Source of the DNA: a virus | IMG/VR virus record: IMGVR_UViG_3300023079_000008 | Coordinates: 1 to 32,442 of that record | DNA length: 32,442 bases | Reading direction: 5' to 3' (one strand) | Part shown: positions 13,575-26,514 of the stretch, piece by piece | Layout: each line of letters starts with the position of its first letter | How positions within the stretch are numbered: position 1 is the first letter of the stretch | Made by a program: the position numbers and the translations under genes | Notes under the pieces: model-generated | What the model saw: only the letters and a program-made list of their open reading frames with translations | The model's database searches: none | What the model was told of the DNA's origin: nothing

Positions 13575-13578
13575 CTAA

Positions 13579-13603: not shown

Positions 13604-13606
13604 AAC

Positions 13607-13628
13607 GGGCGCGGCACGGACCGCGCCC
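13607..13628 (+). promoter_or_regulatory. GC-rich leader hairpin
   Basis: GGGCGCGG and CCGCGCCC form a perfect 8-base stem with a 6-base loop, just ahead of the AAAGGA ribosome binding site of a tiny membrane-peptide gene. Similar hairpins precede the genes at 20573, 20995 and 27793. Confidence 0.45.
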
Positions 13629-13642
13629 AGAAAGGAAAACAG

Positions 13643-13726
13643 GTGGAGCACTTCATCGACGGGTTCGTGCTGACAACGCTCTACCTCATTCCCACCCTGA
13701 TCGCCCTGCGCGTTTTGAACATCTAA
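13643..13726 (+). CDS. 27-residue membrane peptide
   Basis: GTG start with AAAGGA eight to ten bases before it. The peptide (VEHFIDGFVLTTLYLIPTLI, ending ALRVLNI) is essentially one membrane helix. Tightly placed: the next ribosome binding site begins directly after its stop. Function unknown; such peptides in phages can modulate host membrane proteins. Confidence 0.55.
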   Translation: MEHFIDGFVLTTLYLIPTLIALRVLNI

Positions 13727-13738
13727 CAGGAGAACGAA

Positions 13739-13939
13739 GTGGCCAAGAAGTTAAGCGAGAAGAAATTGAAAGCGATGGTGGCGGCTCGGATTCAGAGCGC
13801 CGTCTATGGATTTCTCATCCCGATGACGTCGATCCCCGCGCTGTATCGCCAGATGGAGGCGAAAGTCGCGGCTGGTGGATCGGACGAAGAGCTGAAGGCG
13901 GTGGTTGCCGCGTACCCCGGCGTTGAGCCGAGCGAGTAA
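13739..13939 (+). CDS. Small basic-acidic protein of unknown function
   Basis: 66 residues from GTG with AGGAGAAC eight bases before it. A Lys-rich N-terminal helix (KKLSEKKLKAMVAARIQSAV) is followed by a short hydrophobic stretch (YGFLIPMTSIPAL) and an Ala/Glu helix. Part of the P2 unit, 12 bases after the preceding stop and 11 before the next start. No family recognised. Confidence 0.65.
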   Translation: MAKKLSEKKLKAMVAARIQSAVYGFLIPMTSIPALYRQMEAKVAAGGSDEELKAVVAAYPGVEPSE

Positions 13940-13950
13940 AGGAGAGCGAA

Positions 13951-14571
13951 GTGGGTTGGACGTTTTATCACAAGCCGAAAGGCGTCAAGGCGGTTGACTC
14001 GATCATCGCCGGTTGCGGTCCCGAGTTTGCCAAGAAGATCGTGGCATCGAGCGCTACGCGCGAGGCGGTGTTTCTGGTGGCTCAATTCCACGAGCCCGCG
14101 AGCAAGGTCTACGTCCCCGACGCGGACGGCATGATCCGGGCGCTGCTGGTCTACGCGATCAAGTCGGTGCCCAAGGCAAGCGACGGTTACAATTTCGGTT
14201 ACAAGGACATGGAGGAAGGCATGGGGCCGTATGGCTGCCCCGCTCCGATGTCGATCATCGCCCAGTGCTCCGAGCTGCAGGACCCGATTGGCCCGCTGCC
14301 TGATTATTCCAGCCTCAAGTCTGCCCGCAACTACCGCGCCGGATCGGCGGCACACGCCGCCCGCATGAAGCTGAAGCGCGGCCTGAAGCCCGGCGACAAG
14401 GTGGTGCTGCCAGAGCCGCTGCTGTTCCGCGAGATCCCCTGCCAACGCTTCACGGTCGAGGTCTGCCGCGTCAAGGGACGCAAGGGCAAGAGCACGGTGT
14501 TTCGCGCCGAGAACGGCATGCTGTGCGGACTGAGCGCACGAAGCCTAGAAGGCGCGGTGGTGGAGGCATGA
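13951..14571 (+). CDS. DUF6927-like phage protein
   Basis: 206 residues from GTG with GGAGAGCGAA before it. The opening MGWTFYHKPKGVKAVDSI, the middle YNFGYKDMEEGMGPYGCPAP and the end (KPGDKVVLPEPLLF, RVKGRKGKSTVFRAENGMLC) match the pattern I associate with DUF6927, found in phages and mobile elements of actinobacteria and proteobacteria. The conserved part includes a beta-rich C-terminal barrel-like domain. Function unknown. Its stop overlaps the next start (ATGA). The family name is from memory and moderately certain. Confidence 0.75.
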   Translation: MGWTFYHKPKGVKAVDSIIAGCGPEFAKKIVASSATREAVFLVAQFHEPASKVYVPDADGMIRALLVYAIKSVPKASDGYNFGYKDMEEGMGPYGCPAPMSIIAQCSELQDPIGPLPDYSSLKSARNYRAGSAAHAARMKLKRGLKPGDKVVLPEPLLFREIPCQRFTVEVCRVKGRKGKSTVFRAENGMLCGLSARSLEGAVVEA

Positions 14572-14849
14572 GTCACCTATTCACCCTTGCCAAGGTCGCC
14601 AAACAGCACCTCGACAACGAATGCACTGCCGCCAGCGAGGCCCTCAACGCGGTCCCCGGCATCGGATCTGGCCCGATGGGCCTGACCCCGGACGCGGTCC
14701 GCGCCACGCCCGAATACCGGACCGCCAAGGCGGCGTTCGATGCCGCGTTCGCCGCGCTGCGAGACTTCAATGGCAAATTCAACAAGCAGTTTGCCGCCGA
14801 ATTAAGAGCCGAGCGCCGCGCGCGCGACCAAAAACGAAAAGGAGTCTGA
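14568..14849 (+). CDS. Small helical protein of unknown function
   Basis: 93 residues, starting at the ATG that overlaps the upstream stop. Mostly helical (FTLAKVAKQHLDNECTAASE; TAKAAFDAAFAALRDFNGKF) with a very basic C-terminus (ELRAERRARDQKRKGV), so nucleic acid contact is possible. Belongs to the P2 unit. Open frame upstream of 14568 is a shadow. Confidence 0.7.
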   Translation: MSHLFTLAKVAKQHLDNECTAASEALNAVPGIGSGPMGLTPDAVRATPEYRTAKAAFDAAFAALRDFNGKFNKQFAAELRAERRARDQKRKGV

Positions 14850-14855
14850 CCGACC

Positions 14856-15089
14856 ATGCCGACTTGGATTGAATCCACTGAAGAGCGCTACTGGTACGCC
14901 CTCGAATGTTTGCCACCCGCCTATCGCGCTGGCGGCGGCTTCCTGCTCGGCGAGGCTTACGATCACAACGCCATCGGCGAGCCGCGCTACCGCGCCTACG
15001 TCGAGGCCCCCGAAGGCACGTTCCGTGAATCAGTTGCGCCGATGACCGTCGCCGAATTCAAGGCCGCCAAGGCCGAGGGCTTCAAGTGA
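14856..15089 (+). CDS. DUF1419-like small protein
   Basis: 77 residues. YWYALECLPPAYRAGGGFLL followed by GEAYDH resembles the core of DUF1419, a family of small proteins on rhizobial plasmids and prophages; the C-terminus (VAPMTVAEFKAAKAEGFK) also fits. It supports a Rhizobiales-type host. Function unknown. Its stop overlaps the next start (GTGA). Start ATG at 14856 is preceded by AAAGGAGTCTGACCGACC. Confidence 0.7.
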   Translation: MPTWIESTEERYWYALECLPPAYRAGGGFLLGEAYDHNAIGEPRYRAYVEAPEGTFRESVAPMTVAEFKAAKAEGFK

Positions 15090-15223
15090 GCGTTCACGAC
15101 GAGGCCGACGAGATCCGCGAGCGGATCGAGGATCTCGACATCCTGCTGGAGGCCCTGCGGCAGACGTCCGAAACACTGGCCGTATTTTTACGGCCTCCGA
15201 AACCGCGCGACGTTAAGGATTAA
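15086..15223 (+). CDS. 45-residue acidic coiled-coil protein
   Basis: GTG start overlapping the upstream TGA (GTGA). The first 30 residues form an acidic amphipathic helix (DEADEIRERIEDLDILLEAL), then a short basic Pro-rich tail. The gene contains the perfect hairpin GGCCGTA-TTTT-TACGGCC (15178-15195). Last gene of the P2 unit. Too short to name. Confidence 0.55.
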   Translation: MSVHDEADEIRERIEDLDILLEALRQTSETLAVFLRPPKPRDVKD

Positions 15224-15234
15224 CATCCGCTCGT

Positions 15235-15263
15235 TTGCCACATAGGCCGCTATGGCCTATACC
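15235..15263 (+). promoter_or_regulatory. Accessory-block promoter P3
   Basis: TTGCCA (15235) and TATACC (15258), 17-base spacer. The spacer holds ATAGGCC-N5-GGCCTAT (15242-15260), a perfect 7-base inverted repeat whose right arm enters the -10 box, exactly as in the other five promoters. Confidence 0.8.
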
Positions 15264-15321
15264 TAACTTGAACGAAAGCGCATGACGCGCTGTCAACCCC
15301 AGAGGAGAACGGACCAACACC

Positions 15322-15717
15322 ATGTCACTAGATCGCAAGATGCGCCGCAACAAGCTGCGCAAGCCCTACATCGACAAGAAGACCGGCAACAAGGTGGTGC
15401 CGCTGTCGCCGGAGGCGGTTGATGCCCTGAAGCGGCAGATGCAGGCCTTCAAGGACAAGTTCGGGCGCGAGCCGGAAGGCGACGAGCCGATCTTTTTTGA
15501 TCCCGACTTCGACACACCCACCCCGTGGGATGAAGCGAAGTTCAACAAGATCATGATCGAGAACATGGCCCGCGCTGGCATCCGCGAAGAGCTGATCTAC
15601 GCCTATGCCCGTACCGGCATGATGGTCAGCACCCAGAACGAACATCAGTGGTCGAAAGCCGACATCGCCGAGTGGAATGCCGCGCTCGCAGAATTCGACG
15701 CGATGGAAGCGGCCTGA
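15322..15717 (+). CDS. Phage protein of unknown function
   Basis: 131 residues, basic N-terminus (DRKMRRNKLRKPYIDKKTGN) followed by FKDKFGREPEGDEPIFFDPD and a helical end (IREELIYAYARTGMMVSTQN). The FGREPEGDEPIFFDPD segment looks like a conserved motif of small phage and plasmid proteins, but I know no function. First gene after P3, with GAGGAGAACGG in the leader. The stop overlaps the next start (TGATG). Confidence 0.75.
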   Translation: MSLDRKMRRNKLRKPYIDKKTGNKVVPLSPEAVDALKRQMQAFKDKFGREPEGDEPIFFDPDFDTPTPWDEAKFNKIMIENMARAGIREELIYAYARTGMMVSTQNEHQWSKADIAEWNAALAEFDAMEAA

Positions 15718-16013
15718 TGCAAACCTTCAAGAACCTTCCGGCGGCAGCGGAGGCCGCGAATGGCCTTCCGATCCTGCACGTCAACAGCGGCATGGACACG
15801 CTCTACATCGTGCTCGACGGCAACGTCGATGACATGAAGCGGGCCGAAGTCGCGCTGCTGACCCCGTGCGACGACCGCGAGCAGCGCCACGTCGCCGCCG
15901 GTCATTTGATGCTTGAGCATCTCGACCGGCTCGGCAATGCGAACTGGGCGACCATGACGCGCCCTACCCGGATCAACGCCTTCCCGCGCCCGCGCGCGGC
16001 CTATGGTGAGTGA
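15717..16013 (+). CDS. Small protein of unknown function
   Basis: 98 residues starting at the ATG overlapping the upstream TGA. Alternating alpha and beta segments (FKNLPAAAEAANGLPILHVN; DTLYIVLDGNVDDMKRAEVA), a compact single domain with several His. Part of the P3 unit. No family recognised. Confidence 0.7.
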   Translation: MQTFKNLPAAAEAANGLPILHVNSGMDTLYIVLDGNVDDMKRAEVALLTPCDDREQRHVAAGHLMLEHLDRLGNANWATMTRPTRINAFPRPRAAYGE

Positions 16014-16155
16014 CATGCTGCGAGACATCATCACCCTGACCCCCGAAGAGCGCGCCGCACTGGTCGCGATCTCGCGCATGAACCGGCCGAATGCCAAGCA
16101 ACGCCGCGCGATGGAAGCGATCAAGCGGGCCTATCGCGAGCGCGAGGCCGCGTGA
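16003..16155 (+). CDS. 50-residue basic helical protein
   Basis: ATG at 16003, with a possible later ATG at 16015; both overlap or abut the upstream stop. Sequence LRDIITLTPEERAALVAISR then NRPNAKQRRAMEAIKRAYRE: two basic helices typical of small nucleic acid-binding proteins. Its stop overlaps the next start. Function unknown. Confidence 0.6.
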   Translation: MVSDMLRDIITLTPEERAALVAISRMNRPNAKQRRAMEAIKRAYREREAA

Positions 16156-16406
16156 TGAACACCCCCTGCGCGCATTACGGCGTGGCGTCGAAGGTTGTCC
16201 ATCACGGCCAGATCAAGCATCACATTCTGGTGCTCGGTCCGCTGATCGATCACCCGCACCTCGTCAATTCCGGCGATCAGGAATATGCCGACGCGCTTTG
16301 CAACAGGATGCGCAAGGCGGCGGCTCAATGCCCGGTCCCCAACCACGAAAGGATCTACAGCGTCGTACCGTTGCCGATGACGGGCGGGAGCGACGGCGAT
16401 GCATGA
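16155..16406 (+). CDS. Small His/Cys-containing protein of unknown function
   Basis: 83 residues from the ATG overlapping the previous stop. Rich in His and Cys (CAHYGVASKVVHHGQIKHHI; CNRMRKAAAQCPVPNH), so metal binding is possible but not shown. The 3' end overlaps the GIY-YIG gene start by eight bases. P3 unit. Confidence 0.65.
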   Translation: MNTPCAHYGVASKVVHHGQIKHHILVLGPLIDHPHLVNSGDQEYADALCNRMRKAAAQCPVPNHERIYSVVPLPMTGGSDGDA

Positions 16407-17337
16407 TCAGATTCGCAGCATCGTCGGCGAGCCGCTGGAGTATTACGGCGGCGGCATCTATCAGATTCAGCTTCTCGGCACGGACCGCTGTTATGTCGGA
16501 CGCTCCATTGGCGTTGGCGGTCGCCTGTTTGATCACGTCAAGGCGTTGCTGCTCAACAAGCACGGCAACCCAAAGCTCCAGCGGGCTTGGAATAAATACG
16601 GCCATGACCGCTTCGCTTTCAAGATCCTGCAGAAGGTTGATCCTGCAGAACTGGCCACGGCCGAGCAGAGCTGGATCAATCACTTCCAAGCGGCGTCCAT
16701 CGGCTTTAACATTGTCCCGCTGGTTACCCCCTACGCTCCAATCGACGGTTCGGACCCGAACGTCATCAAGTACCGGCACGCGCTGGATGCGGTCTCGTTT
16801 GCTATGGCCCTTATCGGCGGCGATCAGCTCCCCAAGAAAAAGCGCATTCAGCTTGAGGATTGCCTGCACTGGAATGCCTACGCGCTCAGCATGCTGAAGA
16901 CGTTTCCGCAAGAAATGATCAAGGCCCGGACGACGGCCCGCATTGACGAGGCCCTCAACTACGCGAACGGCCGGATCAAAAAGACCGGCAACCAAACGCT
17001 GATGCCCTACATGGCCGCGCCGGAATCGTACCCGCACGACGCGTCAATGCCGTTGGACCTCTTCCAAAAACTGACGAACGATCTCGCCATGCGAATGAGC
17101 TTCCATAAGGAATGGGAAGCGGCGGCGCTCAAGATGTACAAGCAACGCGCCAGCGCAATCGTCGGCGAGAACGAAGTCAAGCGCCAATGGCGCGCTGTGA
17201 ACTTCGGCGGCGGTCTCATAGGCGATGGCAATTTCATAGAATGGTGCCAGAGCATCGGCGTCAAACAACCTACCGGCGATGAACTGCGGGCCGCCGGACT
17301 GGTGACGTGGGAGTGGAAAAAACGAGAGGCCGCGTGA
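16399..17337 (+). CDS. GIY-YIG endonuclease 1
   Basis: 312 residues. The N-terminal 100 residues form a GIY-YIG nuclease: GIY at 19-21, YVG at 32-34 followed by Arg35, Arg42, His46, Asn57 and Glu89, the metal-binding glutamate. All key positions are kept. The 200-residue C-terminal part is helical, with no recognisable NUMOD or zinc finger, and may recognise DNA. It could be a homing endonuclease or a nuclease attacking host or rival phage DNA. It is followed at once by a second GIY-YIG gene with only an overlapping TGATG between them. Confidence 0.88.
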   Translation: MHDQIRSIVGEPLEYYGGGIYQIQLLGTDRCYVGRSIGVGGRLFDHVKALLLNKHGNPKLQRAWNKYGHDRFAFKILQKVDPAELATAEQSWINHFQAASIGFNIVPLVTPYAPIDGSDPNVIKYRHALDAVSFAMALIGGDQLPKKKRIQLEDCLHWNAYALSMLKTFPQEMIKARTTARIDEALNYANGRIKKTGNQTLMPYMAAPESYPHDASMPLDLFQKLTNDLAMRMSFHKEWEAAALKMYKQRASAIVGENEVKRQWRAVNFGGGLIGDGNFIEWCQSIGVKQPTGDELRAAGLVTWEWKKREAA

Positions 17338-18077
17338 TGCGTCCAAAGAAATTCAATCCGGAAAACCTGCGGAAGGTCAAACCTATCAGCGGGATCTACA
17401 TGATCACCGGACCAGATAAATGTCGTTATATCGGGCAGGCATCAATCTGCAGAACGTCCAACGTACAAAAGCGTCTGAAGACACATTTAAGCATGCTGGT
17501 CAGTGCCACTGCATCGCACCATAATAATCATCTGCAGAATGCTTGGAATTTGTACGGCGCAGACGCTTTCACATTTCAGATTTTGTGCGAAGCGCCTGCT
17601 GACCAACTGGACGAGGCCGAACAACATTGGACCGACTATTATAAAGCACGCAAGAGTGGCGTTTATAACATTTCACCAATCGCTGGCTCACAACGTGGCT
17701 TCAGACATTCGGAAAAAACCAAGGCCGAATACTCTAGGCAACGACGTGGAAATCAGCATGCGCTCGGCAACCGGCACACGCCGGAATTCATCGACCGCTT
17801 TAGAAAGAGCGTCAGCAAACCGCAGTCGGAAGAACACAAAGAAAAACGCCGTCAGTTCAAAACTGAATGGTGGCGAGATCCGGCGCGGGATGCGCAGAGG
17901 GCTGCAATTGCCGAGCGCAACCGCAGCACGGTCTGGACTCCAGCGCGGAGAACGAAACTCAGCAACGCGATGAAGCGCCGCGCACCGACGCTCTGGACCG
18001 ACGAGATGAGAGCAAAGCTCAGTGCAGCGCAGAAGAAACGCTGGGCGAAAGTCCGGGCCGCGAAGGCAGGCAAATGA
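17337..18077 (+). CDS. GIY-YIG homing endonuclease 2 with NUMOD3-like repeats
   Basis: 246 residues from the ATG overlapping the upstream stop. GIY at 19-21, YIGQ at 31-34, Arg46, His50, Asn64 and Glu95 complete the nuclease site. Residues about 122-225 hold repeated short basic motifs (GFRHSEKTKAEYSRQRRGNQ; SKPQSEEHKEKRRQ; TDEMRAKLSAAQKKRW) like the NUMOD3 DNA-binding modules of homing endonucleases. The coding sequence is visibly richer in A/T than its neighbours, which suggests later arrival by transfer. The first 90 residues align with nuclease 1 in pattern, but the C-termini differ. Confidence 0.9.
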   Translation: MRPKKFNPENLRKVKPISGIYMITGPDKCRYIGQASICRTSNVQKRLKTHLSMLVSATASHHNNHLQNAWNLYGADAFTFQILCEAPADQLDEAEQHWTDYYKARKSGVYNISPIAGSQRGFRHSEKTKAEYSRQRRGNQHALGNRHTPEFIDRFRKSVSKPQSEEHKEKRRQFKTEWWRDPARDAQRAAIAERNRSTVWTPARRTKLSNAMKRRAPTLWTDEMRAKLSAAQKKRWAKVRAAKAGK

Positions 18078-18277
18078 TCGTCCTGCTCGTTCTCTTCCTC
18101 CTGCTCGTGCTGCTGTTCTGGTGGTGCCGCCGCGCGCCCGCGTACTACCCGAACCGCTGGGACTCCGATTGCGAGCACTACTGCGAAACCGATTGCGACG
18201 GCGGCGGCGCGGATCACGACTACGACGACGGCGGCGGCTACGACGACTGTCAGGACGACGGCGGATCTGACGATTAA
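18074..18277 (+). CDS. Small membrane protein with acidic Cys/Gly/Asp tail
   Basis: 67 residues. A single hydrophobic helix (IVLLVLFLLLVLLFWWCRR) is followed by a tail of Asp, Gly and Tyr with four Cys (NRWDSDCEHYCETDCDGGG). Likely inner-membrane anchored with the acidic tail outside or inside; metal binding is possible. The ATG overlaps the preceding stop (ATGA). It ends the P3 unit. Role unknown. Confidence 0.65.
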   Translation: MIVLLVLFLLLVLLFWWCRRAPAYYPNRWDSDCEHYCETDCDGGGADHDYDDGGGYDDCQDDGGSDD

Positions 18278-18304
18278 CCATCGCCCAAAAGTCGCTTATC
18301 CGCT

Positions 18305-18333
18305 CTTGCATATAGGCCGGAATGGCCTATACT
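18305..18333 (+). promoter_or_regulatory. Accessory-block promoter P4
   Basis: CTTGCA (18305) and TATACT (18328), 17-base spacer. The spacer and first four bases of the -10 box form the perfect palindrome TATAGGCC-N5-GGCCTATA (18311-18331), the best copy in the window. It lies inside the longest open frame of the next gene, which shows that the real start is downstream. Confidence 0.82.
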
Positions 18334-18357
18334 GAGCTTGAAAGGAGGTACAGGGTC

Positions 18358-18867
18358 ATGGAACCCCTAGTCCGGAAGGCCCACGAGTTCGCCGAGAAGG
18401 CGCACGCCGGGGTGTTCCGTCAATACACGGGCGAGCCCTATGTCGAGCACGTCAAGCGGGTTGCCGCCAGCGTTGCCGCGCTAGGGTTCGGTCCTGAAGT
18501 GGTCGCCGCCGCCGTGCTGCACGACGTGATCGAGGATTGCGAAGTCAGCGAGGCCGAGCTGGCCGCCGAATTCAGCCCCAAGGTCGCCGCGCTGGTGGCC
18601 GAGGTATCAAACCCCAAGATCCCCAAGGCACCCGGCAACAGGCCGTTCCGGAAGGCCGCCGAGAAGGCCCATCTGGCTGGCGCGTCCTATGAGGGCGCTT
18701 CGATCAAGCTGGCCGATATGATCGACAACTCGTCAAACCTCGCCGAGCACGATCCTGCGTTCGCTCAAGTGTATCTGAGCGAAATGGTCAGCCGTGCCGC
18801 GCTGGTCGCCCATGGCCACCCGGAACTGGTGGCAAGGCTGCAAAAGAATCTTCAGAAATACCGCTAG
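18358..18867 (+). CDS. MESH1/SpoT-type HD-domain hydrolase (small alarmone hydrolase-like)
   Basis: 169 residues, the size of stand-alone MESH1-type (p)ppGpp hydrolases. The HD-site residues are all present: YTGEPYVEHV with His31, AAVLHDVIED with His55, Asp56, Glu59 and Asp60, and SIKLADMIDN with Asp120 and Asn124. In the SpoT/MESH1 family these bind a divalent metal and remove the 3'-pyrophosphate of (p)ppGpp; some members also act on NADPH. No synthetase or TGS domain is attached. The longest frame begins at 18322, but that ATG lies in the P4 -10 region, whereas the ATG at 18358 follows AAAGGAGGT by eight bases. It is the only gene between P4 and P5, so it can be expressed alone. Substrate is inferred. 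Confidence 0.88.
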   Translation: MEPLVRKAHEFAEKAHAGVFRQYTGEPYVEHVKRVAASVAALGFGPEVVAAAVLHDVIEDCEVSEAELAAEFSPKVAALVAEVSNPKIPKAPGNRPFRKAAEKAHLAGASYEGASIKLADMIDNSSNLAEHDPAFAQVYLSEMVSRAALVAHGHPELVARLQKNLQKYR

Positions 18868-18873
18868 GCCCTA

Positions 18874-18902
18874 TTGACCTATAGGCCGGAACGACCTATA
18901 TT
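18874..18902 (+). promoter_or_regulatory. Accessory-block promoter P5
   Basis: TTGACC (18874) and TATATT (18897), 17-base spacer. TATAGGCC-N5-GACCTATA (18880-18900) has one mismatch. A partial second palindrome (TAGGCC-N5-GACCTA) lies over the -35 box, as in P2. The promoter starts seven bases after the hydrolase stop codon. Confidence 0.8.
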
Positions 18903-18939
18903 CCCTTTGTTGGTTCGGGAAAGAAAAAGGAGTTCCCCA

Positions 18940-19029
18940 GTGTCATTGGTCGCCAAGCTCGTCAACAAGTTCCTCAATGCCATGGTGGCAGCGTTTTTCG
19001 AAGGTTCGCACGCCTACAAGGAGGCCTAA
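18940..19029 (+). CDS. 29-residue peptide
   Basis: GTG start in the leader AAAAAGGAGTTCCCCAGTG, almost identical to the leader of the gene at 13128. The peptide (VSLVAKLVNKFLNAMVAAFF, ending EGSHAYKEA) is an amphipathic or weakly membrane-seeking helix. It may be a leader peptide or a real small protein; the strong ribosome binding site favours translation. Confidence 0.5.
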   Translation: MSLVAKLVNKFLNAMVAAFFEGSHAYKEA

Positions 19030-19032
19030 TCA

Positions 19033-19602
19033 GTGGCTGAATATCTCTCCTGCTCCGCGACCGCCAAGCTGGTCCGTGTCGCGCTCAAGAAGGCCTTCCC
19101 CGGCATCAAGTTCTCGGTGCGCTCCAGCGTCTATTCCGGCGGCGCGTCGATCCGGGTTGGCTGGACCGATGGTCCGTCCTCCAAGGCCGTCAAGGCGGTT
19201 GCCGGTGCCTACGCGGGCGGTGGCTTCGACGGCATGATCGACATGGCCTACTCGGTCGAGGCGTGGCTGCTGCCCGATGGCTCGGCGTCGTTTGCTTCGT
19301 CCCCCGGCACGACCGGATCGCGGGGCGTCTATGAGCCCTTTGACAATCCGGCTCCGGCTCCCGGTGCCAAGAAGGTTCGGTTCGGCGCGGACTACGTGTT
19401 TTGCGAAAAGGAATATTCGGTCGAGGTCTACTCGGCTGCGGTCGCAACGGTCTGCGCGGACTACGGCGTCGAGATCCCTGAAATCAAGGTCAGCGAATTC
19501 GGCGGCACGCCGTTCATCGGTGGCTATCACCCGGTGCCCAATGCTGGCGAAGAGCTGAGCACGCTGGTCTACCGCGAACTGCAAAAGGAGAATCACGCGT
19601 GA
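19033..19602 (+). CDS. LPD29-domain protein
   Basis: 189 residues from GTG at 19033. The N-terminal 60 residues (EYLSCSATAKLVRVALKKAF, then FSVRSSVYSGGASIRVGWTD) match the large polyvalent protein-associated domain LPD29 seen in phage and conjugative-element polyvalent proteins; FDGMIDMAYSVEAW continues it. Polyvalent-protein domains usually act in host cells soon after entry, but LPD29 has no known activity. The C-terminal half is alpha/beta with FVFCEKEYSVEVYSAAV-like strands. The stop overlaps the next start (GTGA). Confidence 0.85.
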   Translation: MAEYLSCSATAKLVRVALKKAFPGIKFSVRSSVYSGGASIRVGWTDGPSSKAVKAVAGAYAGGGFDGMIDMAYSVEAWLLPDGSASFASSPGTTGSRGVYEPFDNPAPAPGAKKVRFGADYVFCEKEYSVEVYSAAVATVCADYGVEIPEIKVSEFGGTPFIGGYHPVPNAGEELSTLVYRELQKENHA

Positions 19603-20126
19603 AGAAAGATGACGAATACGGCCTCTTGATCGACCGGGTCAACGAGTACGGCTCCGAGAAGGTCACGGTGCATGTGGTGCGCCGCCGCGAGGCGGATGGC
19701 AACGTGCCGCTGGGCTGCTCCGGCGATGGCGAACTCTATGCGGGCTATGGCTGCCCGAAGCATCTGCTCGGACTCATCGTCGATGGCCTCGGCATGTACG
19801 GGTTCGTCAGCGACAGCGATGGCGAGTACATCGGCTACGGTGTCGAATTCCGCAACGTCTATTCCATCGACGCGGCCAAGCTCGGCCGCATGCTGAAGGC
19901 GATCAAGCGGGTCAATGCGCGGATCGAAAAGGACGACGCCCGCGAGCCCGGCGACAAGTTCATGGCGCTGGCCAATGCGCTGAAGCTCTCGTTCGCGGTC
20001 TGCCGGATCGGCGAGCGCCGGGCAAATCCGGACTGGCGCTTCATGTCCATCGCGGAAGGCCGCAACACCTACCGCCAGATGATCGAGACCGCGAGCGCTG
20101 AAGTGCTCGCGCGCAAGGTCGCTTAA
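19599..20126 (+). CDS. Protein of unknown function
   Basis: 175 residues from the GTG overlapping the preceding TGA. A strand-rich N-terminus (EKVTVHVVRRREADGNVPLG) leads into LYAGYGCPKHLLGLIVDGLG and a helical C-terminal half (AKLGRMLKAIKRVNARIEKD). Soluble. It is coupled to the LPD29 gene, so the two may act together. Family not recognised. Confidence 0.75.
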   Translation: MKKDDEYGLLIDRVNEYGSEKVTVHVVRRREADGNVPLGCSGDGELYAGYGCPKHLLGLIVDGLGMYGFVSDSDGEYIGYGVEFRNVYSIDAAKLGRMLKAIKRVNARIEKDDAREPGDKFMALANALKLSFAVCRIGERRANPDWRFMSIAEGRNTYRQMIETASAEVLARKVA

Positions 20127-20150
20127 CCCATGTCAACAGGAGCAACACCC

Positions 20151-20495
20151 ATGCAACCACCACCAATCCCGACACGGCCAAAGCCAAAATCAAACGATCT
20201 GGCGAAGGCCCTTGTGGCGACGCTGGCCGCCTTCGTGATCTTCGGCGTTATCGGCAACGGTGTCAGCGACGACAAGGTCAGCACCAAAGTCGCCGCGCCA
20301 CCGCAAACCACCGCAGCAGAGAATGACAAGCCCTCGTCACTCTGTGACTCGATCACGCGCTGGAAGGGCAACAAGCTCTCAGCCAACCCGTCGCCAGCAG
20401 AGGCGCGGGCTTGGAAGGCAGAGCTGGACGCCAAGCTAAACAACCCGGTCTGGGTCAAGTGCATGACCGACAAATATGGCTCGCTGCTCAATTGA
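20151..20495 (+). CDS. Single-pass membrane protein of unknown function
   Basis: 114 residues. Pro-rich, Lys-containing N-terminus, then one membrane helix (ALVATLAAFVIFGVIGNGV) at about residues 20-38, then a periplasmic-like domain with two Cys (SSLCDSITRWKG; VWVKCMTDKY) that could form a disulfide. The ATG at 20151 is eight bases after ACAGGAG; an upstream in-frame ATG at 20130 lacks such a site. First of four consecutive exported or membrane products or near neighbours in the P5 unit. Confidence 0.75.
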   Translation: MQPPPIPTRPKPKSNDLAKALVATLAAFVIFGVIGNGVSDDKVSTKVAAPPQTTAAENDKPSSLCDSITRWKGNKLSANPSPAEARAWKAELDAKLNNPVWVKCMTDKYGSLLN

Positions 20496-20505
20496 CCTTT
20501 CGCCG

Positions 20506-20560
20506 CTGCGCACCCGGTGCGCAGAACGAAGCGCCAATTCCGGCAACTTCAAAACAGGAG
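20506..20560 (+). promoter_or_regulatory. Leader element A: hairpin plus conserved pre-RBS segment
   Basis: CTGCGCACC-C-GGTGCGCAG (20506-20524) is a perfect 9-base stem, followed by ACGAAGCGCCA...CCGG..ACTTCA..AACAGGAGA. The same order and much of the same sequence occur in element B ahead of the gene at 20995. Confidence 0.6.
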
Positions 20561-20572
20561 ACTGCAACAACG

Positions 20573-20917
20573 ATGCGTAAATTTATCATTGCCGCCACCG
20601 CCCTCGCTCTGATGTCCGGTGCCGCGTTCGCCAAGGACGAGAAGCCCGACTATGCGGGCGACAAGGAAAAATATTCCTGCGGCGACGAGACGCTCAGCAA
20701 GTACATGAAGGCGCTCTACAACGACTCCGGCCCCAGCCTGTTCAGGATGGAAGTGCTCTACGTCAAGGACGCCTCTGAGATGAAGCGCTCTGCCGACGAG
20801 CTGCGTTGCAAGGCGACCATCGTGCATGCGCGCGGCAAGGTCGCTGGCGTGGTCGCGTACACCTACGAAGACGGTCACGCCCTGATCGCCTTCAAGCCCG
20901 GTAGCGGCAAGCGCTGA
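20573..20917 (+). CDS. Secreted small protein of unknown function
   Basis: 114 residues with a clear cleavable signal peptide (MRKFIIAATALALMSGAAFA, then KDEK). The mature part has two Cys (YSCGDETLSKYM; LRCKATIVHA) and ends VAYTYEDGHALIAFKPGSG, a compact periplasmic domain likely with one disulfide. The longer open frame upstream is a shadow; this ATG follows ACAGGAG. Located after leader element A. Role unknown; periplasmic phage proteins can block superinfection. Confidence 0.78.
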   Translation: MRKFIIAATALALMSGAAFAKDEKPDYAGDKEKYSCGDETLSKYMKALYNDSGPSLFRMEVLYVKDASEMKRSADELRCKATIVHARGKVAGVVAYTYEDGHALIAFKPGSGKR

Positions 20918-20925
20918 CGTTTCGA

Positions 20926-20986
20926 CTGTCGCCCTGCGGGCGGCAGCACGAAGCGCCATCCCGGTGACTTCACCAACAGGAGAATA
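20926..20986 (+). promoter_or_regulatory. Leader element B: hairpin plus conserved pre-RBS segment
   Basis: CTGTCGCCC-TGC-GGGCGGCAG (20926-20946) forms a 9-base stem with one G-U pair, followed by CACGAAGCGCCATCCCGG, TGACTTCACC and AACAGGAGA. It is a diverged copy of element A with compensatory changes in the stem. Confidence 0.6.
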
Positions 20987-20994
20987 CACGACCC

Positions 20995-21201
20995 ATGAAA
21001 TCGATTGCGAAACTACTGCACGACCTCGCCGTCTGCATTCACTTGCGGACCGTCGCCGACGAGCACGGCGTGGTGACCAACAAGGCGATCCGGCTCGCCT
21101 ATGGCAGCAATACCCCATCGTCCCGCAGCCGCATTGAGCGACTGATCAAGCTCGGGATGATCGAAGTTGCCGGTCGCAACCGCTACCGCCTGATCGACTG
21201 A
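20995..21201 (+). CDS. Small winged-helix-like DNA-binding protein
   Basis: 68 residues. KLLHDLAVCIHLRTVADEHG, then NKAIRLAYGS and SRSRIERLIKLGMIEVAGRN followed by RYRLID, gives helix-helix-recognition helix and a two-strand wing, the outline of a minimal winged helix. A candidate regulator for the block. ATG at 20995 after AACAGGAGAATACACGACCC. Confidence 0.65.
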   Translation: MKSIAKLLHDLAVCIHLRTVADEHGVVTNKAIRLAYGSNTPSSRSRIERLIKLGMIEVAGRNRYRLID

Positions 21202-21237
21202 ACACACCCAAACCCAACAGTAACAGGAGTAACTGAA

Positions 21238-21441
21238 TTGATACGACGACCCGTGACGAGGATCATCCTCGCCTTCGTTTTCTTTGGCTCACTGGCGGCG
21301 GCCTTCGCTGCCAGCAGCAACAGCTTCAATGATCGCTGGACGACAGCGCGCGACGACGTGGTGGCAGCGCAGCGGGACATCCCGCAGCAGAAGCTGCACG
21401 ACCGTGCGTTGGAGATCCTGCGCAACATGGAGGCGAAATAA
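21238..21441 (+). CDS. Small exported or membrane-anchored protein
   Basis: 67 residues from TTG at 21238, eight bases after ACAGGAGT; a GTG five codons later is an alternative. N-terminal RRPVTRIILAFVFFGSLAAA is a signal peptide or anchor, followed by an amphipathic helix (FNDRWTTARDDVVAAQRDIP). Its stop touches the next start (TAAATG). No family recognised. Confidence 0.65.
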   Translation: MIRRPVTRIILAFVFFGSLAAAFAASSNSFNDRWTTARDDVVAAQRDIPQQKLHDRALEILRNMEAK

Positions 21442-22143
21442 ATGAAGCGCACTTCCCTCGCCGTCGCCGCGTTGCTGATCAGCACCGTTGCGGCCTCCGC
21501 CTACGATCTGACGTGCGCCGCGCCGCGTGTCGCGCTCGGCGACGACCCTCGCGATGACAACCCGGTGGTCAGCGTCGAGATCAAATTCGTCCCGGAGGAG
21601 CATCTCTGGCGCGTCTTCCATCACCTCGCCGATGGCCTCGTGGTCTCGCGCTCGGAGCAGTACGCGATTCAGGATGCCTCGACCGATAACAAGGCGCAGT
21701 GGCAAGGCACGTTGAACCGGGCGCGGCATCTCACCATGGTCGGCGAGATCAAGCGCGTCGATGGCGCGCTGGTCTATCTGGAGTGGCTGTACGACCGCAA
21801 GAAGAACGATCAGCTCGTGATGCACGCCGCCGCGCGTTGCACCAAGACGGCACCCCCGCCGCCGGTAGCAACGATGTGGTTTCAAGTGCCGCCCTACGCC
21901 AGCAACGGGATCTTGAACGTCCGCCGAGGCCCCGGCGTCAACCACGGGCTGGTCGGCGTGATCCCGGCCGGACAAGTCGTCAGCGCCTCGCGCTGCACGC
22001 CGCGCGATGACGGCACCGTGGGTGCCGACTGGTGTCTGGTGTCTTGGAATGGCATCACCGGCTGGGCCTCGCAGGCCGTGCTGCTGCCGATCCAGCAGGA
22101 GCAGCAGGCACCCGCCCCGCGCATCCCGCGACCGACGTCGTAA
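21442..22143 (+). CDS. Secreted bacterial SH3-domain protein
   Basis: 233 residues. Signal peptide (MKRTSLAVAALLISTVAASA), a first domain of about 110 residues with strand-rich sequence (VSVEIKFVPEEHLWRVFHHL), a Pro linker, then an SH3b domain at about 152-216 (GILNVRRGPGVNHGLVGVIP, WCLVSWNGITGWASQAVL) and a Pro-rich tail. SH3b domains bind peptidoglycan or proteins in the envelope. No catalytic lysis domain is present. Likely periplasmic, acting on the host envelope or on superinfecting phage. Starts directly after the preceding stop. Confidence 0.83.
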   Translation: MKRTSLAVAALLISTVAASAYDLTCAAPRVALGDDPRDDNPVVSVEIKFVPEEHLWRVFHHLADGLVVSRSEQYAIQDASTDNKAQWQGTLNRARHLTMVGEIKRVDGALVYLEWLYDRKKNDQLVMHAAARCTKTAPPPPVATMWFQVPPYASNGILNVRRGPGVNHGLVGVIPAGQVVSASRCTPRDDGTVGADWCLVSWNGITGWASQAVLLPIQQEQQAPAPRIPRPTS

Positions 22144-22167
22144 TGGGCAGCATCCCAGTGGGCCGTC

Positions 22168-22196
22168 TTGCCAAATTGGCCAGAACGGCCTATATG
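22168..22196 (+). promoter_or_regulatory. Accessory-block promoter P6
   Basis: TTGCCA (22168) and TATATG (22191), 17-base spacer. AATTGGCC-N5-GGCCTATA (22174-22194) keeps the GGCC-N5-GGCC core and register. It drives the HTH gene that follows, with the start predicted near 22203. Confidence 0.75.
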
Positions 22197-22229
22197 GGTG
22201 ATTCCATGTCTCTAACTGCAGGCGGACCA

Positions 22230-22490
22230 ATGACCGCAGACGAATATCGCGCCGCGCTCGATAAGCTCGGCATCAATCAACAGGCTGCGAGCCGTTTCTT
22301 TGGCGTCGGCGCGCGGACCTCGCGGCGTTGGGTGGCGGGCGAAGCGCGCATCCCCAACCCGGTGGCCATGCTGCTGCAACTGATGGTAAAAAAGAAGCTC
22401 AAGCTGGAGATCCCGGTCTGGAATGAAGAGGCACAAGCCTTCGACCGAAGCCAGATCTGGTTGCTGCAGGCGTCCAACAAGCTGGAGTGA
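22230..22490 (+). CDS. HTH regulator (XRE/Cro-like), candidate controller of the palindromic promoters
   Basis: 86 residues. EYRAALDKLGINQQAASRFF then GVGARTSRRWVAGEARIPNP is a Cro/C1-type helix-turn-helix with the recognition helix around ARTSRRW; the rest is a helical and strand end (KKKLKLEIPVWNEEAQAFDR). The ATG at 22230 has AGGCGG just upstream; the ATG at 22206 lies about three bases from the predicted P6 transcription start and would be leaderless. As a DNA-binding protein made from a promoter that itself carries the palindrome, it is a natural candidate for an autoregulated repressor of P1-P6. This is inference. Confidence 0.78.
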   Translation: MTADEYRAALDKLGINQQAASRFFGVGARTSRRWVAGEARIPNPVAMLLQLMVKKKLKLEIPVWNEEAQAFDRSQIWLLQASNKLE

Positions 22491-22495
22491 GCGCG

Positions 22496-22708
22496 ATGGC
22501 AGAACCGTTCTATGGCAGCTTCGACGGCCTCGCCTGTCGCTACACCGCGAGCGAAGGCTGGGTTCTCCATGACGACTGGGTGCAGCTCAACAGCTCCTCG
22601 GTCAACAACGCTGCGCGCGAACTGACGCGCGCGGAATTCGAACAGCTCTTCCCGGATGCGCCGCCGCTCCCGGCGGACGCGTTCAAAGCCTCGGCCGTCC
22701 GTCCGTGA
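22496..22708 (+). CDS. Small protein of unknown function at the end of the accessory block
   Basis: 70 residues from the ATG at 22496, eight bases after GGAG; a GTG at 22487 overlaps the upstream stop and is possible. Acidic, with FYGSFDGLACRYTASEGWVL and LTRAEFEQLFPDAPPLPAD. Its 3' end overlaps the end of the minus-strand gene by 26 bases, so the two transcripts converge here. No family recognised. Confidence 0.65.
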   Translation: MAEPFYGSFDGLACRYTASEGWVLHDDWVQLNSSSVNNAARELTRAEFEQLFPDAPPLPADAFKASAVRP

Positions 22709-23663
22709 CGGCCCAGTCGGTGCCATTGTAACCGTCGAGCACCGCGCCGTAGAGCGCCTGCATCTTGGCATTGAGCCCGGCCTTGCCCGGATCGTCGTCC
22801 TTCATCACCCGCGCCGCCTCGTAAAGCTCGTGACCGCCGCCCTTGGTCTTGGCCTCCAGCATGCGCGGCTCGGTGATCTGCACCTCGCCGATCAGCCCGG
22901 TGGCGCGATCCCGAAACAGCAGCGCGCGGTCGGTGTAGTGCGAGTCTTTCACCGTGCGCCACGGCTCGGCCAGCACCTCGTGGGTGCGCGCGAGCTTGGC
23001 GATCACGGCATCGGCCTGATCCGGCGACGTCAGCACGAACGCGCCACGCGCGGTGTCGGTGACGCGGGCGGTCACGCCCTTACGTTCGACAATCTTCTGC
23101 TTGGTGCGCTCGATGCCCTTGGCACTCGACGTCTTCGGCCCCGGATCTTTGAACGTGATCCCCAGCTCGTCGGCTATTCTGCGGCCCGCCTTGGCAAAAT
23201 TTTTCTGTGCTATCGGCGCGGCCCGGACCACGTCGTCGATGGTCTTGATCGGCGACGCCGCCACCCATGCATCGCGCTTGCGCTCGACCTCGACGGTGCC
23301 GCGTCCCCGCACCCCCGGCTTGTAGTCCGGCACGGCTGCCGCGTCGTCGCTGCCGCCGCCATCGCTCCACCGGCCATGCTCATCGCGCGGTTGCGACGGA
23401 TCGAAGTCGAGAAGCTGAAGCGCCTTGCCCTTCACCCGTGGCCAGCGCAGCGCCCGTGCCTTGGCGCTCTGCTGCGCTTGATGCGCGGCACGGTGGCGCG
23501 CGCGGATCGGGGCCATGATCTTCTCGTCGATGGGATAATCGACCGGGTTGATGATCGCGTTATGCAAATCTGCATCTCGCTTCACACCGTCCGCGCTGTC
23601 GTCGTCGGTGTAGAAAAATTCCTCGGCCTTGCGCTCTTCAGCCACGGGCAGCCCTGCCGACAT
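22683..23663 (-). CDS. Polyvalent virion-module protein with RelA/SpoT-like nucleotide-transferase domain
   Basis: 326 residues. Residues 1-100 are a charged lead ending in FDPSQPRDEHGRWSDGG, a linker motif common in phage minor head and ejected proteins. Residues about 175-290 resemble the RelA/SpoT synthetase fold: basic SAKGIERTKQKIVERKG, Asp203 in VTDTARGAFV, Tyr243 in KDSHYTDRAL, Glu260 and Gln262 in GEVQITEPRM, and His278/Tyr281 in GHELYEAAR, matching the catalytic Asp, stacking Tyr and catalytic Glu of (p)ppGpp synthetases. No HD domain is attached. It overlaps the end of the gene upstream by 26 bases; GTG at 23645 is an alternative start. Activity may be alarmone synthesis or pyrophosphorylation of another target. 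Confidence 0.72.
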   Translation of the reverse strand: MSAGLPVAEERKAEEFFYTDDDSADGVKRDADLHNAIINPVDYPIDEKIMAPIRARHRAAHQAQQSAKARALRWPRVKGKALQLLDFDPSQPRDEHGRWSDGGGSDDAAAVPDYKPGVRGRGTVEVERKRDAWVAASPIKTIDDVVRAAPIAQKNFAKAGRRIADELGITFKDPGPKTSSAKGIERTKQKIVERKGVTARVTDTARGAFVLTSPDQADAVIAKLARTHEVLAEPWRTVKDSHYTDRALLFRDRATGLIGEVQITEPRMLEAKTKGGGHELYEAARVMKDDDPGKAGLNAKMQALYGAVLDGYNGTDWAVTDGRPRL

Positions 23664-26514
23664 ATTCCTTGAACCGGGCCATCGACTCGGCGTCGGTTAG
23701 CTTCAGAACGCCGCTCCAGTTGGTGTTGAGCAACAGCTCCTTGCCGCGTGCGCTGTCGGCAATTTTCCAGATCGACTTCGGGTTGCTCGACTTCACCGCC
23801 GCGAGCAGCGGATCTTCGCCGGGCTTCTCCGGCGGGAAGAGGTCGGGGTTGAGGCCGAGCCCGTCGTCCTCGTCTTCGTCGGCTTCCTCGTCGTCCTCGT
23901 CCGGCTCGATCTCGATGTCGGCCATGCCGTAGTCGATGGCGTGGCGCAGCTTGTCGCTGTCCTCTTTCTGGTCCCAGTATTCGCCCTGATACTCGCTGAC
24001 GCTCTCGGCAAGATAGTCCGGCGGGTCGATGTCGTCCGCGTTCTCTTCCGCCTTCTTGTCGAACGCGGCGATCATGCGCTTCTCGATCCGGTCGCGCATG
24101 TCCTGCGTCAGGTAGCTCGCCGGGTCGATGGGATCGATGCCGGGCAGCGTGCCCTGCGCCGGATCGTAGCCTTCCGGCTCCTGCAGCTTGTCGTCGTGAA
24201 AGGTGATCTCGGGATCATCCTCGCCGTCGCCGTTCCGTGACTCGTAGTCCAGCGTGATGGCGTCGAACAATTGCTTGTTGGTGTAGGGGATCGGCGGCTG
24301 GCCGCGCTCCTCGAAATAGTTTCGTGCGCCGTCGAACGCCTCGGTCGCCCACTCCGGCATGTCGCTGTCGTTGTAGAGACTGGCGAGCTGGTGCTTGGCG
24401 TCGTCCTTGGCCTGCCCGTTCTCGCGCCATTGCTGCTGCTCGCTTTCGAGAAATTCCGAATAGCTTTCGCGCATCCAGCGGTCTCGCACGTCGCTCTGCA
24501 CGTCGTCGCCCAGCATGCTCCATTCTTCGGCCTCGTAGGTGTCGGCTCCGCTCGACGGACGCGAGCTGCTGCCGCCACCGCCGAGCTTGTTCTCCAGCTT
24601 GCCGCGCAGCTCATTCCACGCCGCTTGCGTCGGCACGTAACCGTACTTCGCCCACGCATAGCCGCCGACGTCGATGTTGGCGGAGACCTCGACCTTCTCG
24701 ATGCCGAGCGCTTCGTACATCTCGACGTTGCCCGCCAGAATCTTCTTGCCGATGTCGTGCTTGGTCTGCGACTTGTTCAGCTTGAAGTAGGCGCTGTAGG
24801 CTTCCTTGGCGTCGATCTTGATGTCGCGCTCATAGGTGCCGACTTCCGCGCCCTCGTTCGCGCCCGTGCCCCAGATCGAGCCGGTCACGTTGTACTTGCC
24901 GCCGTAATCGACGATGTTCATGCTGGCATTGACGCCGCCGAGAAACGTTTTCTTGAACTCCTCGGGCTCGATGCCGATCTTCTCGTTCCACTTGGCGATG
25001 AATTCCTGCTCGCTCTGCGTGGTCGCGGCTCCGCCCGCCTTGCGGATGTTGATCTTGGCCTTGTCGAAATCTTCCTTCTTGGCGGGCTTCTTGCTCTTGC
25101 CCGGCTTGCTCGGCTTCGTTGACGAGCTGCCGCTGCCGCCCCCACCGCCTCCCGGCGCAAACTGACCGCTGTCATCGCCCGAGCCCGCAGGCACGCGCGG
25201 ATGATCGGCTTCATTCCATGTGCCGCGCGCCAGCAGCACCCGCGCACTCGCACGCGCGAGACTCCACTGCTTCTGCAGCGTGGCTGCCGCCACCAGCGCG
25301 TCGGCATCGGCATATTCGCCCGGCACCAACCGCAGGCCCGCAAACGGCGTGCCGCTGACATCGACTTCGTAAGGCATGCCGTTGAGCAGCGCGTACAACT
25401 CGCCGCCCTCGTTGACGAACCAGCCGGTCTTGACGTCGGTCGGCTCGGCCGGGGCTGCACGACGGACGATATCGAACTGCTTGATCTGCAGGACGTGCGC
25501 GATGGCTGGCGCGAACAACTGCTCGGTCCGCGCCCACGTCAGGCCACCGAAGAAAGTCTGATCGTCCGAGTGGTTCGGATTGTAGACTTGCGAATACAGC
25601 TCGGCGAACATCTCGCGCTGTCCGCCCCTGATCCAGTAGTTCGCGTTTTTGGCTTCCTGTTCCGTCATCTGCTTGACGGCGTCGGCGAAGGACTGCTTGA
25701 GCCCGACGTCGGCGCTCGGTGCCCACCCGTTGACGTAATCGAAAGCATGCGCCAGCTCGTGGACCGTCACTTGCTCGGGCTGCCGGACCGGCAGCAGCGA
25801 CTCTGTCTTGTGCGACTGGGCCGAGCCCTGCGGCCCGACCTCGGTGATCGTTGCCTGCATCTTGATCGCCTCGGCGACGTCGATGCGCGGCTGGTCGTTG
25901 ATCCAACTGAACAAGCCCACCGTGCTGGCACCGCCCCCGGCGGCGATGTGGCTCGGGAAGTCATCCGACGTTTTGGTCAGCACAACCGGAACGTGGGCGA
26001 TTTGAGCGGCGTGGCTCGCCGGGATTGCGGCCACCGCCGCCTCGATCTTGGCGAACGCCTCGCTCGATGCACCCTTGCCCCGCGTGGTCTTGGGCGCATC
26101 GCTGCTGCCCGAGTCGGTCCATCGGCCGTGCTCGTCGCGCGGATGCTCGCTCTCGTCGAACCTGATTTGCCACGGCGCGTTGCGGCCCTCGCAGGCGAGG
26201 CAGGATGCGCCGCACGGCTCGATCAACAGATCGGCGTCAGCCTCCGCCACGATGGCGGCGCGGGTCACCAGTTCTTTCTTGCCGAGCTTCTCCGACTTGC
26301 GCCATTTGCGGGCGCAGACGCCGGGCGCTTTCTTCGGGCCGACGCATTTGGAAAGCGCGATGACGCAGCGATCCATGAAGGCGTCGCGGCTCTCGTCCTT
26401 TTCCGGCCACAGCTCGATCTCGGTTTTGCCGGGCTTCGGTTTCTTGGCGCGCGCGAGCAGGCGTAGCGCGCGCGCCTTCTCGATCCGGTAACGCTGCTGG
26501 ACCGAGAGCTGCAT
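23638..26514 (-). CDS. Large polyvalent virion-module protein: zinc-protease motif plus acetyltransferase-like domain
   Basis: 958 residues. Order: helical start; a Cys/Trp motif (FMDRC...GVCARKW, 46-71) like that in the capsid fusion; linker HPRDEHGRWTDSG (124-136); a zincin region with VTVHELAHAFD (His252, Glu253, His256) and EMFAELYSQVY (Glu305), resembling lethal-factor-like proteases; a segment ending in linker HPRVPAGSGDDSGQF; a Lys-rich linker; a region at 540-640 (GKKILAGNVEMYEALGI, VSANIDVGGYAWAKYGYVPT) like the GNAT-type fold seen in similar phage proteins; long acidic sequence (about 870-905); and IWKIADSARGKELLLNTNWS near the end. Probably packaged and ejected. It starts directly after the upstream stop with no clear ribosome binding site. 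Confidence 0.8.
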   Translation of the reverse strand: MQLSVQQRYRIEKARALRLLARAKKPKPGKTEIELWPEKDESRDAFMDRCVIALSKCVGPKKAPGVCARKWRKSEKLGKKELVTRAAIVAEADADLLIEPCGASCLACEGRNAPWQIRFDESEHPRDEHGRWTDSGSSDAPKTTRGKGASSEAFAKIEAAVAAIPASHAAQIAHVPVVLTKTSDDFPSHIAAGGGASTVGLFSWINDQPRIDVAEAIKMQATITEVGPQGSAQSHKTESLLPVRQPEQVTVHELAHAFDYVNGWAPSADVGLKQSFADAVKQMTEQEAKNANYWIRGGQREMFAELYSQVYNPNHSDDQTFFGGLTWARTEQLFAPAIAHVLQIKQFDIVRRAAPAEPTDVKTGWFVNEGGELYALLNGMPYEVDVSGTPFAGLRLVPGEYADADALVAAATLQKQWSLARASARVLLARGTWNEADHPRVPAGSGDDSGQFAPGGGGGGSGSSSTKPSKPGKSKKPAKKEDFDKAKINIRKAGGAATTQSEQEFIAKWNEKIGIEPEEFKKTFLGGVNASMNIVDYGGKYNVTGSIWGTGANEGAEVGTYERDIKIDAKEAYSAYFKLNKSQTKHDIGKKILAGNVEMYEALGIEKVEVSANIDVGGYAWAKYGYVPTQAAWNELRGKLENKLGGGGSSSRPSSGADTYEAEEWSMLGDDVQSDVRDRWMRESYSEFLESEQQQWRENGQAKDDAKHQLASLYNDSDMPEWATEAFDGARNYFEERGQPPIPYTNKQLFDAITLDYESRNGDGEDDPEITFHDDKLQEPEGYDPAQGTLPGIDPIDPASYLTQDMRDRIEKRMIAAFDKKAEENADDIDPPDYLAESVSEYQGEYWDQKEDSDKLRHAIDYGMADIEIEPDEDDEEADEDEDDGLGLNPDLFPPEKPGEDPLLAAVKSSNPKSIWKIADSARGKELLLNTNWSGVLKLTDAESMARFKEYVGRAARG

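Follow-up and report, generated by a model that had tools for sequence, protein, structure and literature searches.

The phage genome considered here encodes a RelA/SpoT-like alarmone synthetase domain and a small alarmone hydrolase (SAH) of the MESH1/SpoT type on opposite strands and 3.8 kb apart, as the original prediction had noted, and this arrangement raises the question of what the synthetase serves for and whether the hydrolase controls it. The stretch of DNA analyzed, referred to below as the window, is IMG/VR virus record IMGVR_UViG_3300023079_000008 (32,442 bases, possibly incomplete), which belongs to a phage with a contractile tail. The answer favored here, with moderate confidence, is that the synthetase is cargo in an Apk2-type polymorphic-toxin cassette of the phage, mounted on a carrier domain that Pfam and PHROGs do not recognize, with a convergent 73-residue protein as its immunity partner and the SAH as a second, cargo-independent defence.

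The 326-residue protein that bears the synthetase has no match in Pfam, PHROG, NCBIfam, or PADLOC. In a phmmer comparison with the PDB, Tas1 was reached at E = 0.0092 over the whole sequence, through two colinear stretches that are each weak alone. Searches of viral contigs with the whole protein (0/15 stretches confirmed), of genome contigs with the synthetase C-terminus (0/91), and of phages with the synthetase by tblastn at E<=0.01 yielded nothing. Weak tblastn matches at E = 0.02 (a gut phage) and E = 0.5 (Photobacterium) led to related open reading frames (ORFs), the seeds L022 and L023 (loci carry L numbers throughout). A profile of four sequences, including that of the window, matched Tas1 at 6.1e-24 and SaSAS at 7e-6, and the four-row alignment found nine viral loci out of 23 pattern-matching stretches, L026/L027 and L031/L032 being largely the same DNA; the best of them was L024 (40% identity, E 4e-28), whose own synthetase domain found nothing when searched in phages. 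A hidden Markov model of the nine other alignment rows, of which two are nearly identical (L026, L028) and which were aligned together with the window sequence, scores the 326-residue protein at 144 bits, whereas the highest-scoring of 2000 shuffles reached 11 bits. Additionally, a genome scan with alignment A7 confirmed 2 of 89 stretches (Palleronia and Vibrio).

The AlphaFold model of the protein has a mean pLDDT of 74 and a pTM of 0.62, with values of 80–97 per ten-residue block over residues 121–310. Its best Foldseek match is Tas1 (6.8e-8), which is also matched by VIA with Z 15.9 and a root-mean-square deviation of 3.2 over 164 residues. Among the 12 PDB rows at E<=0.001, ten carry the name Tas1, small alarmone synthetase, or GTP pyrophosphokinase in their titles; smu.1046c, with no function in its title, accounts for the remaining two. 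Profile and model together firmly support a RelA/SpoT-fold synthetase in residues ~139–318. Twelve columns are invariant in ten aligned sequences, including Asp203, Tyr243, Glu260, and Gln262, the four positions on which the original prediction had relied, as well as Lys177, Lys190, Arg206, Lys272, His278, and Tyr281. Both the fold and the key residues of that prediction are thereby borne out. The acceptor motif reads HYTDRA in the window and YxDxK (six), YxDxL (two), or YSGNI (one) in the nine other rows. The Photobacterium ORFs, with YRDLK, are presumably of the VpEAS kind, and VpEAS makes (p)ppGpp only (PMC12691689). If the synthetase were an inactive or structural remnant, a decayed fold retained for the structure of the virion, its remote sequence and altered acceptor motif would be accounted for, yet the catalytic positions are conserved over ten sequences, the other nine of which are only 21–39% identical to that of the window, and this explanation is very improbable.

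Relatives of the synthetase lie inside larger proteins together with ddrB-ParB (L026, L030), an ADP-ribosyltransferase (ART) domain (L024), or portal, Acb1 anti-CBASS, and MuF domains (L025). The last of these is a single protein of 1470 residues (L025 positions 856–5268) that ends in the synthetase. In both L024 and L025 the synthetase follows a junction motif resembling that of the window, and several effector domains occur in one late or virion protein, the 326-residue protein having one recognized cargo. Judged by these two architectures, the synthetase family occurs in structural proteins. An ART-like stretch ahead of the synthetase can also be read in the sequence of L025.

The N-terminal carrier domain appears in relatives with other C-termini or alone. 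The carrier of the window is 60% identical to the start of a 625-residue protein of L004, whose C-terminus is a Zeta_toxin domain (E 1.2e-24). A scan with an alignment of the N-terminal carrier confirmed seven loci out of 65 stretches. Zeta cargo is carried or begun in three of them, namely L039 (the same record as L004), L042, and L041, which is cut at a contig end and whose zeta part is 100% identical to that of L042 over 74 residues; three others (L040, L043, L044) have a stand-alone carrier of 65–73 residues, and L045 shares only the junction motif. Since L043 and L044 are near copies, the distinct cases amount to two zeta and two stand-alone carriers. A conserved N-terminal carrier with interchangeable C-termini, which are a synthetase in the window, zeta in L004 and L042, and none in the stand-alone forms, corresponds in its sequence to a polymorphic-toxin layout beside the capsid gene. 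Because the stand-alone carrier gene lies directly ahead of the capsid gene in L040, L043, and L044, and a homologue of a 958-residue protein precedes the carrier in 6/6 carrier loci, the carrier gene is placed within the head operon, which agrees with the earlier view that the synthetase gene sits among virion-type genes. In the window, the gene of the 958-residue protein shares 26 bp with the start of the carrier gene. Motifs like FDPSQPRDEHGRWTDGG were observed at domain junctions of head-operon proteins in the window (both genes), L004, L024, L025, L040, L042, and L045, and the pattern gave 16 matches, one of them in a probably antisense ORF; the motif might be a processing or recombination site.

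On the opposite strand, the convergent 73-residue ORF starts at a GTG that overlaps the stop of a helix-turn-helix (HTH) gene. Among 2823 ORFs from 35 loci, some of which overlap, its best two matches are convergent ORFs of L024 and L025 that overlap the 3' ends of their synthetase genes by 58 and 61 bp. Since antisense overlap could mimic homology, the comparison was repeated with the overlap cut: with residues 1–65 of the 73-residue protein alone as query, the L024 and L025 ORFs still ranked first and second, and when both partners were trimmed of the overlap, the pairs scored 57 and 59 against shuffle maxima of 45 and 41, the score being reached in 0 of 2000 shuffles for either pair. In L004 and L042, which carry zeta cargo, the position behind the HTH gene is occupied by a different small ORF, which the two share at 55–59% identity (E about 1e-12) and to which the window has no match at E<=0.01; relatives of the 73-residue ORF were not found beside zeta cargo. 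This shared ORF stops short of the zeta gene in L004, and in L042 an extra 66-residue ORF lies between it and the zeta gene, overlapping the latter by 4 bp. In three synthetase and two zeta phages, the small ORF appears to change along with the neighboring cargo, a pattern familiar from toxin and immunity genes, and from its position and this association, the 73-residue product is probably an immunity protein. It is predicted to adopt a small beta-alpha fold (pLDDT 78); the immunity chain of Tas1 is not among the 50 fold matches listed for it, though a different fold does not follow from this. Same-strand frames just downstream of the synthetase gene were considered as the true partner gene and rejected, as 22,277–22,771 and 22,212–22,436 match relatives only in places that are antisense to the HTH gene, which itself gives the stronger match. 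A bicistronic toxSAS toxin-antitoxin operon was not found either, the gene upstream of the synthetase being the 958-residue head-operon gene.

The hydrolase contains a single HD_4 domain (62 bits, cut-off 27) with the metal and ED residues of SpoT/MESH1, and its best PDB matches include SpoT, Rel, and SAH structures. Residues H31, H55-D56, E59-D60, D120, and N124 are invariant in four aligned sequences, in accordance with the full HD hydrolase originally described, and the presence of AAAGGAGG before position 18,358 makes an upstream start at the ATG at 18,322 unlikely. Relatives were found in 336 of 50,697 phage records at E<=1e-3, the SAH of SSU5 is 39% identical over 82% of the window SAH, and a search of viral contigs confirmed 17 of 35 stretches; the protein is an ordinary phage SAH. 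It lies, like the candidate immunity ORF, inside an accessory island between the carrier and capsid genes, the genes of which, spanning 12,015–22,708, read as plus-strand ORFs. The island is found at the same place in L004 and L042, and in L003 up to the end of its sequence, and is not seen at that place in L040, L043, L044, or L045. All three readable islands of cargo-bearing phages contain the SAH, with a synthetase in the window and zeta in L004 and L042, and so does L003, whose sequence ends before the carrier; no SAH was found in the records of L040, L041, L043, L044, and L045, of which L041, L043, and L044 are short. The presence of the SAH in zeta-cargo islands indicates that it tracks the island rather than the synthetase and is not a dedicated partner. 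A proposal that L003, with its SAH, and L044, with its stand-alone carrier, which derive from one metagenome, represent a single phage was rejected, since their ends have no exact overlap of 20–399 bases.

These data bear on the explanation that the SAH is the dedicated antitoxin or control enzyme of the virion synthetase, like ATfaRel or Aph1. Product-degrading hydrolase immunity is known (PMC12226406), a like promoter-type element precedes both the SAH and the HTH/73-residue operon in the window, and in the gut phage L022 (4671–6079, MT835636) and in L029 a stand-alone synthetase ORF is followed on the same strand, about 320 bp downstream, by an SAH ORF; the L030 record holds a weak HD gene. 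Co-occurrence outside this phage group is real in L022 and L029 and possible in L030. On the other side, no synthetase domain was detected in any of the 17 SAH-bearing viral records, several of which are fragments (the positive control for this search gave 6/6, but the controls hold model sequences or a near copy), and the SAH accompanies zeta cargo in L004 and L042. An HD_4 search of the L024–L028, L031, and L032 records came up empty at E<=0.01, which argues weakly, as the same search missed the SAH present in L029. The few cases and differing thresholds preclude a claim of enrichment between SAH and synthetase. It is the convergent 73-residue ORF that goes with the synthetase. This explanation is unlikely, and the original prediction is not supported where it made the hydrolase the control partner; the co-occurrence in relatives that it asked for was not found in the 17 SAH records and is seen in L022, L029, and possibly L030. 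The SAH may act, by analogy with Aph1, as a second, product-degrading immunity.

According to another explanation, the synthetase, as a domain of an injected polyvalent protein, serves to remodel host metabolism in host takeover or counter-defence, with no toxin-immunity logic, and the SAH counters host toxSAS. The settings of the relatives described above are compatible with it, and the phage SAHs of SSU5 and PVP-SE1 are reported to counteract toxSAS (PMC11559606, PMC7644958). The carrier also bears a zeta toxin, however, and the adjoining small ORF changes with the cargo, which makes this explanation rather unlikely.

The SAH and the candidate immunity gene may be co-regulated. A 27-base palindromic element resembling a promoter or operator, of which one copy is the promoter P4 of the original prediction, occurs four times in the window with <=3 mismatches, compared with 0.01 expected from shuffles, in a search whose pattern was drawn from the window's own sites; it precedes the SAH as well as the HTH/73-residue operon. 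When <=5 mismatches are allowed, sites of this kind are found before the SAH in L003, L004, and L042 and at the HTH gene in L003 (2) and L042 (5). The HTH protein can be guessed to be the repressor of these elements. The elements stand before several accessory genes within positions 11,945–22,194 (+).

On the Apk2-type reading, the head-operon carrier would bring the C-terminal pyrophosphokinase cargo to be packaged, probably with or near the head, and the cargo would be released into the infected cell, where the synthetase would transfer pyrophosphate from ATP to a nucleotide (or tRNA) and so stop growth. The product of the convergent gene would confer immunity, and the SAH would act independently of the cargo by degrading alarmone-type products of the phage's own toxin or of host toxSAS. 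Delivery of an alarmone-type effector with the virion, as first proposed, remains a fair reading in view of the Apk2 precedent. A more far-reaching version may also be envisaged, and is put forward only tentatively: the head operon would have a "cargo socket", in which a short carrier acquires a toxin, either synthetase or zeta, along with an island inserted on the opposite strand. This island would provide an immunity gene that faces the toxin and matches the cargo, and an alarmone hydrolase independent of the cargo, under one palindromic operator, and the synthetase, whose acceptor site is divergent, would make a product other than (p)ppGpp or (p)ppApp.

Several points weigh against the cassette interpretation. 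Pfam and PHROG find no MuF or portal domain in the 326-residue protein, MuF being seen only in the relative L025. The acceptor motif HYTDRA fits neither the GxN tied to (p)ppApp synthetases nor the SxH tied to (p)ppGpp synthetases (PMC12226406). The 73-residue family has three known members, and a viral scan with it confirmed 2 of 13 stretches, both in the records of L024 and L025, with patterns drawn from the same three sequences; these two records come from one metagenome (3300028800) and are not fully independent. The 73-residue protein has no Pfam, NCBIfam, or PADLOC match, its best PDB sequence match is at E 0.51, and the fold matches of its model, at E 0.71 for the best, are not significant. 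In polymorphic-toxin systems the toxin gene is usually followed directly by the immunity gene (PMC5576092), and the shared small ORF on the zeta side does not overlap its toxin gene, so that the two layouts are alike rather than identical.

The features discussed are collected in Table 1. The minus strand of the window also carries genes for small and large terminase, portal, head-tail adaptor, sheath, and a collagen-like fibre in addition to the protease-capsid fusion. Residues ~150–330 of the 958-residue protein may form a zincin metalloprotease module (HELAHAFDYVNG; Pfam ATLF E 0.042, below the cut-off), which lies outside the part shared with L004 and is perhaps another swapped cargo. Within the island, an overlapping, adjacent pair of GIY-YIG genes was observed (16,399–17,337 and 17,307–18,077, +), the second with a weak NUMOD3 match. 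The SAH gene is adjoined by one for a protein with LPD29, a domain of polyvalent proteins (19,033–19,602, +), which has relatives in L004 and L042 (68–70%) and in L025 (50%). No structured RNA was matched in Rfam.

Table 1. Coordinates of the features of the window, with strand and basis or context
Feature	Position	Strand	Basis or context
Carrier domain plus RelA/SpoT-fold synthetase cargo, 326 aa	22683..23663	-	ORF, profile, model
Carrier domain, residues 1-~85	23409..23663	-	In relatives, stand-alone or joined to zeta toxin
Junction motif FDPSQPRDEHGRWSDGG, residues 87-103	23355..23405	-	Like motif precedes synthetase in L024, L025
Predicted synthetase domain, residues 139-318	22710..23249	-	Alignment, AlphaFold model, Foldseek, VIA
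73-aa ORF, candidate immunity gene	22487..22708	+	Convergent; overlaps last 26 bp of synthetase gene
HTH protein	22230..22490	+	Weak similarity to MqsA-antitoxin HTH; directly upstream of 73-aa ORF; conserved in L003, L004, L042
Small alarmone hydrolase, MESH1/SpoT-type HD, 169 aa	18358..18867	+	HD_4, PDB matches, alignment
Palindromic promoter/operator-like element before SAH (P4)	18305..18331	+	Pattern search
Same element before HTH/73-aa operon	22168..22194	+	Pattern search
Same element before LPD29 gene	18874..18900	+	Pattern search
Same element before 15322 ORF	15235..15261	+	Pattern search
Accessory island	11945..22708	+ (strand from reading of ORFs)	Sits between capsid gene and carrier gene
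S78 protease-capsid fusion	9678..11906	-	Homologue directly after stand-alone carrier in L040, L043, L044
958-aa head-operon protein	23638..26514	-	Upstream of carrier gene; core residues ~409-956 conserved

What makes the locus interesting is its carrier, the partner that converges on and overlaps the synthetase gene, and the island in the head operon, not the fact that synthetase and hydrolase occur together. Phage-borne alarmone-synthetase toxins would be extended to a carrier that the domain libraries do not recognize and to a layout in which toxin and candidate immunity gene converge. Such a layout would allow separate expression of a late toxin gene and of an immunity gene under its own control. 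Carrier, cargo, partner, and hydrolase provide testable parts for the question of what use virion-borne toxins are to phages. In the literature consulted, which covers subscription journals only in part, neither this carrier nor an alarmone-synthetase toxin with a convergent, overlapping immunity gene is described.

Related systems have been known for some years. RelA-like MuF toxins were described in 2017 (PMC5576092), as were RelA/SpoT domains that are joined to MuF or occur in polyvalent proteins of the phage type, for which alteration of the host by an alarmone-like response was proposed (PMC5512222); the window protein shares the RelA/SpoT homologue (RSH) domain with the latter but has one recognized cargo on a short carrier. 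The window SAH belongs to the same HD family as the phage SAHs PaSpo of SSU5 and that of PVP-SE1, and differs from them in its setting, an island within the head operon in a group of phages that bear cargo. The closest structures and profile matches (Tas1, SaSAS) connect the synthetase with the type VI secretion effector Tas1/Apk1 and the exported alarmone synthetases SaEAS and VpEAS (PMC12691689), from which it is distinguished by its putative delivery and its N-terminal part. The same logic of one toxin with two immunities is found for the MuF ADP-ribosyltransferase Bxa (PMC11699363).

The nearest counterparts are the Apk2 MuF toxins of S. pneumoniae, M. haemolytica, and P. multocida prophages, whose immunity is provided by IapK and the hydrolase Aph1 (PMC12226406). 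As in Apk2, a phage head-linked protein with a C-terminal RSH-fold synthetase is accompanied by a small immunity candidate and by an SAH in the same phage. Unlike in Apk2, no MuF domain was found in the window carrier and the GxN motif is absent; iapK and aph1 follow the toxin gene, whereas the small ORF of the window is convergent and overlapping and the SAH lies 3.8 kb off on the other strand, and SAHs of the window type accompany other cargo in relatives. As it departs from Apk2 in the MuF domain, the GxN motif, and the gene order, the window system is regarded as a variant of the Apk2 type and not as a member. Virion-linked alarmone synthetases with hydrolase immunity have already been published as Apk2/IapK/Aph1, and what is new here is the carrier, the convergent overlapping partner, and the island.

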